A DNA stretch of 64,000 nucleotides, from positions 1-64,000 of the forward strand of contig NZ_JH815199.1 in the NCBI RefSeq assembly GCF_000296445.1. The letters run 5' to 3'. The notes under the pieces were generated by a model, which saw only the letters and a program-made list of their open reading frames with translations, was not told where the DNA came from and searched no databases. The position numbers and the translations under genes are program-made. Origin of the DNA: Slackia piriformis YIT 12062. GTDB lineage: Bacteria > Actinomycetota > Coriobacteriia > Coriobacteriales > Eggerthellaceae. This document shows, one piece after another, positions 1-64,000 of this stretch. The number at the start of each line of letters is the position of its first letter. The stretch's first letter is position 1.

Positions 1-82
<82 letters not shown>

Positions 83-15665: not shown

Positions 15666-15691
15666 ATACATGACGTATGGCAAATCAGCAA

Positions 15692-15849
15692 GATAGCGCA
15701 CCCGCAGCGTTGCTGCGGACAGTCTTGAGGGTATTCCCCGCAAGCCCACCCACGCGCCATGCCTGACGCATAAGTTCGGCGAGCGCACCTCCCCCTGGCA
15801 TCAAACGCCTGCCGGCTTTGCCAAGGCTCATCTTGCCCGCGCCTCTATC
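15692..15849 (-). promoter_or_regulatory. Lysine riboswitch (L box) controlling lysA
   Basis: The minus strand shows L-box landmarks in order: P1 5' strand GATAGAGGCGCG, AGATGAGCC, TTGGCAAAGCC, GGGGGAGGTGCGCTCGCCGA (consensus GG-AAGG-CGCCGAA), then CTCAAGACTGTC and P1 3' strand GCGCTATC. GATAG/CTATC pair to close P1. Known biology: lysine binding favours termination. With the downstream terminator this predicts lysine repression of lysA-dapA-dapB-dapH. Confidence 0.9.
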
Positions 15850-16098
15850 GATTTAACGAAACTACCGCTTTAGTGTGCGATAGTCAAGAGCGATTGCGCA
15901 AGCGCATAAGAAATAAAGAACGGCGTGGCATTTGGATATTGGGGCACTTTTCGGGCTGCGAAAGCTTTCGACTCCATTTATGGCGCCGCCCGCGAGCGCT
16001 CCAAATAAGGGGATACGCGTCCGCAATGCGGGAAGGACGAGCCTCTAAGTTGCGCGAGGGCGCGGGGGCAGTTCGTTTGTGCGGCCGGGGCTGCTTCA

Positions 16099-62034: not shown

Positions 62035-62169
62035 CTACACGCAAAGACGCTTGCGGCCCTTAGCACGACGAGCGGCCAAGACAGCACGACCACCTTTGGT
62101 AGCCATGCGAGCACGGAAACCGTGGCACTTGGCGCGCTTGCGCTTATTCGGCTGGTAAGTGCGCTTCAT
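62035..62169 (-). CDS. rpmH: 50S ribosomal protein L34
   Basis: 44 residues, beginning [20 protein letters not shown] and ending [11 protein letters not shown], the L34 signature. SD GGGAGACGAT precedes ATG 62169. First gene of the rpmH-rnpA-yidD-yidC-jag transcript. Confidence 0.98.
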
Positions 62170-62223
62170 ATCGTCTCCCTTTCACGGTCAGCATTTGATA
62201 GTCCATTAGTGAATAGCCGTATG

Positions 62224-62251
62224 ATTGTACCGCGCGCAACCGAAAAGTAAA
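62224..62251 (-). promoter_or_regulatory. rpmH promoter
   Basis: On the minus strand TTTACT, a 16-base spacer and TACAAT, about 55 bases upstream of rpmH. In bacteria with this arrangement the rpmH promoter lies beside oriC. Confidence 0.65.
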
Positions 62252-62852
62252 CCCTTTTTGAAAACAATATCCCCGTTACTCCATGAAGAGCCACGGACCG
62301 GTCTTTCCCGTCCCTCTAGCTGGAGGCTTCTTCTTCCATGAGCGCCATCTTCGAAATGTTGAAAACGTTGAAAAGTGGCATAATCCCAGGAATTCGCGGT
62401 TGAAAAGTCTCTGGAAAACATTCCACACTGTTCTTTCCGTATGGAAAATATCCTTGTGAAAAAAGGCAGTATGCAATCTTATACCTATCTGAACAGGCAT
62501 TATACAAAATAGCTTCAATGTTTCTGCTTTTTGCCATTTTTCAGAACTGCCACGCTTTTCCAGGCTTTTTCCAGTTTAAAAACATGGAATTTTCCCTTCT
62601 CGACAAAGCAGCCCGCAGGGTTTTCCTCATTTTTAGAAGCGTTGCCCACTGTTTTCAATCAACTTTTCAAGAATGATTCCTGACTTTCCACAATGGTTGA
62701 ATAAAATGTTGAAAACTTATAAAAGGCGGGGTGATACTGCTTGAAATTTTCCACGTACCCTCGAAATGCCCCTTGGAAAAGTTTTCCACAATCCGTAAAA
62801 TGGGGAAAACCGATTCGGGGAAAACTATCTCGCTTCCTGGAATCGTCGGAAA
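62240..62852. other. oriC: Probable replication origin (oriC) with variant DnaA boxes
   Basis: A 600-base gene-free region between rpmH and the dnaA side. It carries candidate DnaA boxes: TTTTCCACA (62782-62790), CTTTCCACA (62684-62692), TTTTCCACG (62747-62755) and CATTCCACA (62419-62427), plus many near-matches of TTTTCAAC/GTTGAAAA type, several spaced in AT-rich stretches. Canonical TTATCCACA is not seen. Neighbourhood rpmH/dnaA and ParAB nearby support an origin. Exact limits and the melting region are not known. Confidence 0.75.
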
Positions 62853-63680
62853 ATGATGAAAACTTCGGAATTAAATGGAAAAGCGTTGGAACCCACATCA
62901 AACACACCGCAAGACGCTCCAGAAACCGTCGGCTCGTTGAGCGACGATTTTTCCCATGCACTCACTTCCGCGCGCATCGCATGCTACGACGATTTCCGCA
63001 GCGCACCACGTGTTACCGAGATTGCACCGAACACAACAGCGGAATTCATCGAGAGCCTTGCCTCCACAATCTACACGCAGGCGCAGCAAACGGGCGGGTC
63101 CATCCCCTACACCGTTATCAGAGAAGTAAGCGAGAACTTCATTCATGCCCGATTCTGCGAAATCGTCGTTTCCATATATGACGGAGGAAACACCATCAGG
63201 TTCTCCGACCAAGGCCCGGGCATTCCCCAGAAAGAGAAAGCCCAGATGCCGGGGTTCTCTTCCGCCACAGACCCCATGAAACGATACATTCGAGGGGTGG
63301 GAAGCGGGTTGCCCCTTGTCAAGGAATACCTCTCCTTCTCCCATGGGCGCATTACCATAGAAGACAACCTCAGGGCGGGAGCGGTCGTCACCATAAGCGT
63401 CGCACCTGGTCAGGACCGCAGCCCATCGAAACGTCACACGAGCACGCCCCAGCGTAACGACTCGACCCCGCGTCTCACCGACCGAGAGAAGGACATCCTC
63501 CGCCTCCTCATGCAAGAAGGATCTCTGAGGCTCACGGACATCAAAAACGATCTCGGCCTAAGCCCTAGCACCGCGCACCGAATCCTCGGGAACCTCGAGG
63601 AGGCCGGGCTTGTGGAATCGGTCGGGAAGATGAGATGCCTGACCGACTTTGGCCTGGGCATTGCGGAAGACCTGTTTTAA
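62853..63680 (+). CDS. GHKL-type ATPase fused to a winged helix, next to dnaA
   Basis: 275 residues. A GHKL (HATPase_c) domain at about 45-190 has N-box VIREVSENFIHA, G1 FSDQGPGIP and G2 GVGSGLPLVKEYL; there is no HisKA or other sensor part. After a Ser/Arg-rich linker comes a C-terminal winged helix (TDREKDILRLLMQEGSLRLT, STAHRILGNLEEAGLVE) of MarR/IclR-like type. It could be an anti-sigma or switch protein coupled to DNA binding. It lies directly after oriC, 125 bases before dnaA on the same strand. The start (ATG 62853 or 62856) has only a weak SD. Function unknown. Confidence 0.85.
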   Translation: MMKTSELNGKALEPTSNTPQDAPETVGSLSDDFSHALTSARIACYDDFRSAPRVTEIAPNTTAEFIESLASTIYTQAQQTGGSIPYTVIREVSENFIHARFCEIVVSIYDGGNTIRFSDQGPGIPQKEKAQMPGFSSATDPMKRYIRGVGSGLPLVKEYLSFSHGRITIEDNLRAGAVVTISVAPGQDRSPSKRHTSTPQRNDSTPRLTDREKDILRLLMQEGSLRLTDIKNDLGLSPSTAHRILGNLEEAGLVESVGKMRCLTDFGLGIAEDLF

Positions 63681-63805
63681 CCCCTCTAGACAAGGTACGC
63701 CGCACCTACAGCAAGAAGACAGCGGCATTACGCATATACGACACGGCTATTTCGTTAAACAAGACGACGAAGCAGCCTCTATCGAACGAAAGAGAAAGTG
63801 CAACC

Positions 63806-64000
63806 ATGGTAGACTCCAGCAACCTCTACGAAACCTGGCAGCTCGTCTGCGCCCAGGTGAAAAGTTACGACACGGTCAACGCCATCCAGGTCGACGCTTT
63901 CTTCGGCCGCCTCCAACCCCAGGCCATATCCGACGGGTTTTTGATCGTAACCGCCGATACCGCATTCATAAAAGACCAGGTGGAGAGAAGGTTCCTTACC
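63806..64000 (+). CDS. dnaA: Chromosomal replication initiator DnaA (N-terminal part, partial)
   Basis: The first 65 codons reach the window edge. Residues MVDSSNLYETWQLVCAQVKS and FFGRLQPQAISDGFLIVTAD fit DnaA domain I. ATG 63806 follows gaaagagaaag about 6 bases away. Right neighbours are not visible. Confidence 0.88.
   Translation, partial: MVDSSNLYETWQLVCAQVKSYDTVNAIQVDAFFGRLQPQAISDGFLIVTADTAFIKDQVERRFLT

Follow-up and report, generated by a model that had tools for sequence, protein, structure and literature searches.

Control of replication initiation is well understood in E. coli, and YabA, SirA and WalR act elsewhere on initiation by unrelated means. A role comparable to theirs is proposed here for a GHKL-winged-helix protein whose nearest described relatives, in fold, lie in other families. 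The SpoIIAB/RsbW anti-sigma kinases have the same GHKL fold and the same E-x-x-x-N box, which SpoIIAB, GyrB and MutL share and histidine kinases lack; they have no winged helix and are encoded with STAS/sigma partners. The histidine kinase catalytic domain has the N, G1 and G2 boxes and the fold in common with the protein, and MarR/IclR-type regulators have a winged helix like that at its C-terminus. A related GHKL domain is present in DIP2311 from Corynebacterium diphtheriae (PDB 3lmm), a protein of unknown function that was a structural-genomics target. The likeness to YabA and other initiation regulators is confined to the proposed role, control of DnaA or of initiation.

The gene lies near the right end of the window, the whole 64,000-nt stretch of DNA that was analysed from the gut bacterium Slackia piriformis YIT 12062 (contig NZ_JH815199.1, positions 1 to 64,000). 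It occupies 62853-63680 on the + strand, with its ATG at 62853 and a stop codon ending at 63680, and encodes 275 amino acids. The closest named records belong to Slackia species, and no second copy is matched in its own genome at E<=0.001. Among the papers listed in searches of open-access full texts, a body outside which most subscription papers and bioRxiv preprints fall, no description of the gene appeared, and this GHKL-winged-helix gene beside the origin is apparently so far unstudied.

The protein is composed of a GHKL (Bergerat-fold) domain (residues about 32-185; 62946-63407, + strand), a flexible linker of low pLDDT (residues about 186-206; 63408-63470, +) and a C-terminal winged helix with a MarR-like fold (residues 207-275; 63471-63677, +). 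Pfam places HATPase_c at residues 86-183 (E 2.7e-10, above the gathering score) and HTH_IclR at residues 214-256 (E 5.7e-11), with HTH_24 and MarR likewise above cut-off and the winged-helix matches together spanning residues 208-257. An ATPase domain joined to a DNA-binding domain, as the sequence-only reading had described it, is thus borne out by Pfam and by a confident AlphaFold2 model, as is its statement that a sensor histidine-kinase part is missing: the 23 Pfam families listed for it at E<=0.1 include neither a dimerisation/phosphoacceptor domain of the HisKA type nor any sensor part. Also absent from these matches are an IclR effector domain, the protein terminating with its winged helix; YabA (PF06156); and AlbA_2, for which the N-terminus is too short. 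Neither Pfam nor the model reveals a domain beyond the GHKL and winged-helix units, and no NCBIfam model listed for the protein comes near its cut-off.

The marks of a GHKL ATPase, an N-box asparagine, D-x-G-x-G, G-x-G-x-G and an α/β sandwich, are all present in the alignment of 114 family members and in the model. The N box, E91-x-x-x-N95-x-x-H98 (63123-63146, +), retains its asparagine and histidine in 114/114 members; the G1 box, D119-x-G121-x-G123 (63207-63221, +), retains all three residues in 114/114; and the glycines of the G2 box, G148-V-G150-S-G152 (63294-63308, +), are found in 114, 113 and 114 of the 114. The ATP pocket is conserved, near-invariant across these diverse members. HATPase_c is matched by 114/114 and HTH_IclR by 104/114 (Pfam, E<=0.1). 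Within the class, a family-built profile detects the winged helix in 105/105 members, with HTH_IclR in 91/105 at E<=0.01. Mean pairwise identity is 0.582 for the ATPase part versus 0.376 for the winged helix within the class, and 0.473 versus 0.373 in the wider set. Such variability of the winged helix could mean that the conserved job is not sequence-specific DNA binding. The interdomain linker ranges from 17 to 264 residues across the 105 class members and exceeds 100 residues in 28 of them.

The AlphaFold2 model, built from the 114 family sequences, has a mean pLDDT of 89.3, rising to about 93-98 in the GHKL and winged-helix domains; about 30 residues ahead of the GHKL domain are of low confidence or disordered. 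Modelled alone, the GHKL domain reaches a pLDDT of 90.7. Its best structural match is DIP2311 (Z 14.5, 156 aligned, rmsd 2.9), after which SpoIIAB chains and kinase domains tie at a Z of about 11.6 (SpoIIAB 1til: Z 11.6, 128 aligned, rmsd 3.2). Foldseek ranks histidine kinases first for this domain and 3lmm at 41, and the TM-score of 3lmm over the query, 0.70, is the highest among the 50 Foldseek rows. Foldseek alignment of the full two-domain model with 3lmm chains A, C and D covers 279-285 columns with an rmsd of about 11, indicating that the domains are posed differently in the two proteins; judged from the model, both may have a GHKL domain followed by a winged helix. DIP2311 is about twice as long, with about 15% sequence identity, and carries an N-terminal Schlafen AlbA_2 domain, which the Slackia protein lacks. 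The winged helix superimposes on MarR 4jba with a Z of 14.3 (68 aligned, rmsd 0.7), and its top structural rows have Z about 14 with 68-69 residues aligned and rmsd about 0.6-1.0. The protein differs from histidine kinases in having a glutamate in the N box in addition to lacking their dimerisation and sensor parts, and from MarR/IclR-type regulators in coupling the winged helix to an ATP-binding domain.

Upstream of the gene, rpmH (44 aa; 62035-62169, - strand) is the divergent neighbour across a 683-bp gap (62170-62852). This oriC-like interval holds 12 DnaA-box-like sites (TTWTNCACA, up to one mismatch), spanning 62357-62809, including exact DnaA boxes TTTTTCACA at 62455-62463 (-) and TTTTCCACA at 62782-62790 (+). 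Across 12 kb around the locus, 22 such sites are present versus 12.1 expected per 12 kb, a count reached in 1 of 200 shuffles, and 12 of the 22 fall in the rpmH-ORF gap; the stretch from the ORF to dnaA is free of them. Of 165 related upstream regions, mostly rpmH-ORF gaps, 73 contain the word TATCCACA, versus 1.4 expected. Downstream, dnaA (601 aa, +) starts 125 bp past the ORF stop; its first 65 codons lie in the window (63806-64000) and it ends at 65611 on the contig. Of the placement between oriC and dnaA given by the sequence-only reading, the dnaA side stands as described, and the oriC label has support, though not proof, from the DnaA-box cluster in the gap.

Promoter-like sites number six on both strands of 62170-64000 versus 1.1 expected, with all + strand sites located upstream of the ORF. 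A sigma-70-like element, TTGGAA-17-TAAAAT, at 62773-62801 (+), whose spacer contains a DnaA box, has the best position and is the probable promoter of an ORF-dnaA operon. A simple scan of the ORF-dnaA interval detects neither a promoter-like nor a terminator-like site. Because every + strand candidate precedes the ORF, dnaA is probably read through it from the origin edge, and the ORF seems to open the dnaA operon as its first cistron. The TTGGAA-17-TAAAAT element also occurs in two other gene-bearing loci (L003, L031). We claim no promoter common to all loci, the best-scoring site varying outside Slackia-like genomes. Across 165 origin/upstream regions, an operator search brought out DnaA-box words alone. 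A head-to-head box pair (T[AT]TCCACA, 2 bases, TGTGGA[AT]A) is present in 16/165 upstream regions, and deep lineages (L104, L110, L173, L186, L191) repeatedly show such a pair, with a third box after it, upstream of the gene; we do not claim the pair as the protein's own site.

Position was read in 181 gene-bearing loci, one per genome and mostly from best-scoring matches: 120 from the class, 41 from the phylum and 20 from the Clostridia-side phylum. In 167 of them dnaA lies directly downstream on the same strand (112 class, 35 phylum, 20 Clostridia-side). Nine more (five class, four phylum) have the gene ending a contig (+) and dnaA opening the same contig (+), which we take as the circular join of the two. 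The gene is flipped in two (G264, G189), still abutting oriC, and three are cut by a contig edge (G318, G648, G566). Among the 178 informative genomes, whose loci came mostly from the best-scoring matches, none has the gene away from dnaA/oriC. Gene-dnaA spacing is short and operon-like, with medians of 54 bp (class), 11 bp (phylum) and 44 bp (Clostridia-side), and is <=60 bp in 109/167 loci, overlaps included; these figures retain 11 outliers >200 bp and four below -60 bp, which reflect automatic start choice or real spacing. An rpmH homologue is divergent upstream in 147/181 (93 class, 36 phylum, 18 Clostridia-side), lies elsewhere in three and falls outside the fetched stretch in 31. Forty control loci, picked by hand from Clostridia-side genomes that lack the gene (20 carry YabA and 20 do not; two stretches are shortened by contig ends), contain no comparable gene between rpmH and dnaA, and their rpmH-dnaA gap measures 131-975 bp in the 36 with both in the usual order. 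The conservation of position across Coriobacteriia that the sequence-only reading named as its check is strongly confirmed by the class loci, and in the loci read it extends to other classes of the phylum and to another phylum. With linkage reaching far beyond Coriobacteriia, the finding is stronger than first stated, and its interpretation as a regulator is a good, unproven lead.

A strong family match (E<=1e-20) is found in 341/396 class genomes. At E<=0.001 the number rises to 370/396, 29 of which match weakly (7.9e-7 to 7.8e-4); these are taken to be other GHKL proteins. A phylum survey of 396 genomes yields 157 positives (E<=1e-15), 119 of them from other classes, and 31/299 genomes of the Clostridia-containing phylum are positive at E<=1e-18. 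Two further phyla, that of a spirochaete and that of an Ignavibacteriales record, give 0/149 and 0/148 at E<=1e-18 in searches that included no known positive. Of the 55 class genomes lacking a strong match, a DnaA search covered 49 and left out six. Forty of the 49 have no dnaA match in the assembly either (E<=1e-20), and many class assemblies seem to lose their origin regions. Among the nine that have dnaA, a contig end truncates the region in two, and the other seven are true absences with an intact rpmH-dnaA region; an explanation of the absences purely by assembly artefact is rejected on these seven.

The GHKL and DnaA trees, built by a quick method with SH-aLRT support only, contain several long branches. 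In the GHKL tree, a branch of support 76 has all 61 class members on a single side, and 14/16 Bacillota members form one clade (support 93). This grouping, together with the shared locus, leads us to favour descent with losses, though short of proof, over horizontal spread into Bacillota.

Three genomes placed in the genus of Slackia piriformis (G161, G226 and G329; loci L123, L124 and L125) lack the gene. L123 (G161:C8:13000-25000) preserves a degraded remnant, 67% identical over 155 bases at the gene start; no remnant is detectable in L124 or L125. L123 and L124 keep the TTGGAA-17-TAAAAT promoter ahead of dnaA, and L125 has a variant of it. The DnaA-box region remains in L123 despite the decay of the gene. 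In the DnaA tree the three genomes group as a single clade (SH-aLRT 94), and of the genomes sampled that of Slackia piriformis is its closest neighbour (97). Since the clade next to Slackia piriformis has lost the gene, it is not essential there, and its product would be a modulator rather than a core part.

Rearrangements leave the gene at the origin. In the flipped pair, L140 (G264) and L141 (G189), the gene and dnaA diverge from the origin; the interval from the gene 5' end to dnaA contains 10 and 9 DnaA-box-like sites, the rpmH-ORF side none. Because the boxes of the flipped pair lie between the gene and dnaA, closeness to oriC outlasts loss of the operon. In Raoultibacter timonensis (L036) the usual order is reversed: divergent dnaN and rpmH flank a segment that keeps oriC, the gene and dnaA side by side, as though the whole segment had been inverted. 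The natural losses near Slackia piriformis and the flipped genus offer ready-made comparisons.

A role in dnaA expression or initiation is our leading reading because of the conserved position, the ATP pocket and the first-cistron look of the gene. Specifically, the protein may be an ATP-gated DNA-binding switch, encoded by the first gene of the dnaA operon beside oriC and tuning dnaA transcription, oriC use or both, a proposal to which we give an even chance. ATP, or the ATP/ADP state, would pair the GHKL domains or change their pose; this change would alter winged-helix binding at an origin or promoter site just upstream of the protein's own gene. With dnaA probably transcribed from that same promoter, the protein would tune the supply of DnaA; it could act on the origin complex too. 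The ATP-driven change, DNA binding, the target and the effect on initiation are here what we infer, and the switch would probably be autoregulatory. Counting against it are the lack of any motif other than DnaA boxes in the origin regions, the seven losses from intact regions and the variable winged helix. The sequence-only reading had proposed a regulator of dnaA or of initiation "in this group": position, ATP pocket and operon look favour the regulator, the group was drawn too narrowly, and the clade neighbouring Slackia piriformis has lost the gene. Fixed beside oriC/dnaA in every informative genome read, the gene encodes a strong and concrete candidate regulator of the start of chromosome copying.

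The better conservation of the ATPase part than of the winged helix also suits a SpoIIAB/RsbW-like serine/threonine kinase or binding antagonist of a protein partner, most obviously DnaA; its winged helix would then serve just to bring it to the origin. The glutamate of the E-x-x-x-N box, present in 111/114 members, is consistent with this idea, as are the place of SpoIIAB chains directly after DIP2311 and the spIIAB model TIGR01925, which matches 32/114 members at E<=0.001 (best 3.5e-7; the Slackia protein is not among its 12 listed matches). However, histidine-kinase catalytic domains match about equally well in structure, SpoIIAB-type proteins have no DNA-binding domain, and inspection by eye of the ORFs around dnaA revealed no STAS or sigma-factor partner; we regard this alternative as unlikely. 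MarR/IclR-type winged helices usually belong to local or global transcription factors, and other genes near dnaA are also conserved in order, as would fit a transcription factor with its main targets elsewhere, kept by dnaA through operon inertia. A gene held there by inertia alone is hard to square with its never being found away from dnaA/oriC in the 178 informative genomes, with the genus in which it is inverted and still abuts oriC, and with the Raoultibacter segment kept together as if turned as a block, and we think this account quite improbable. A structural role at the origin, in which the protein would clamp or remodel oriC DNA at the expense of ATP, using its GHKL domain as gyrase or MutL does rather than regulating transcription, would agree with the N-box pattern common to MutL and GyrB, with weak sequence matches to MutL and with a gene 5' side that abuts DnaA boxes in both orientations seen; yet with 275 amino acids only, no further domain and a winged helix of transcription-factor type, such a role seems highly improbable.

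An extension of the ATP-gated switch, which we advance as rather doubtful, is an old module for initiation control, shared by Actinomycetota and some Bacillota, in which a nucleotide-sensing protein at the origin would couple the energy state of the cell to DnaA supply and origin firing. Its task would have passed to YabA and similar proteins in other Bacillota, and it would have been lost in the well-studied Actinomycetes, a loss that, if real, would explain why the module was overlooked. YabA matches 143/299 Clostridia-side genomes (142 over cut-off), and it never occurs together with the GHKL-winged-helix family (0/31 versus 143/268; Fisher p 3.7e-10). The DnaA tree contains only two independent pairs on supported branches, on which the exclusion is without significance. 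We keep the exclusion as a lead and do not take it as evidence of replacement by YabA, the pattern following clades and not being independent of phylogeny.

Near the ORF, Rfam reports no RNA element that reaches its gathering score. Elsewhere in the window it identifies a lysine riboswitch at 15686-15855 (-; RF00168, 87.8 bits), and the start of a 16S rRNA gene lies at 1-82 (-), running off the left window edge.
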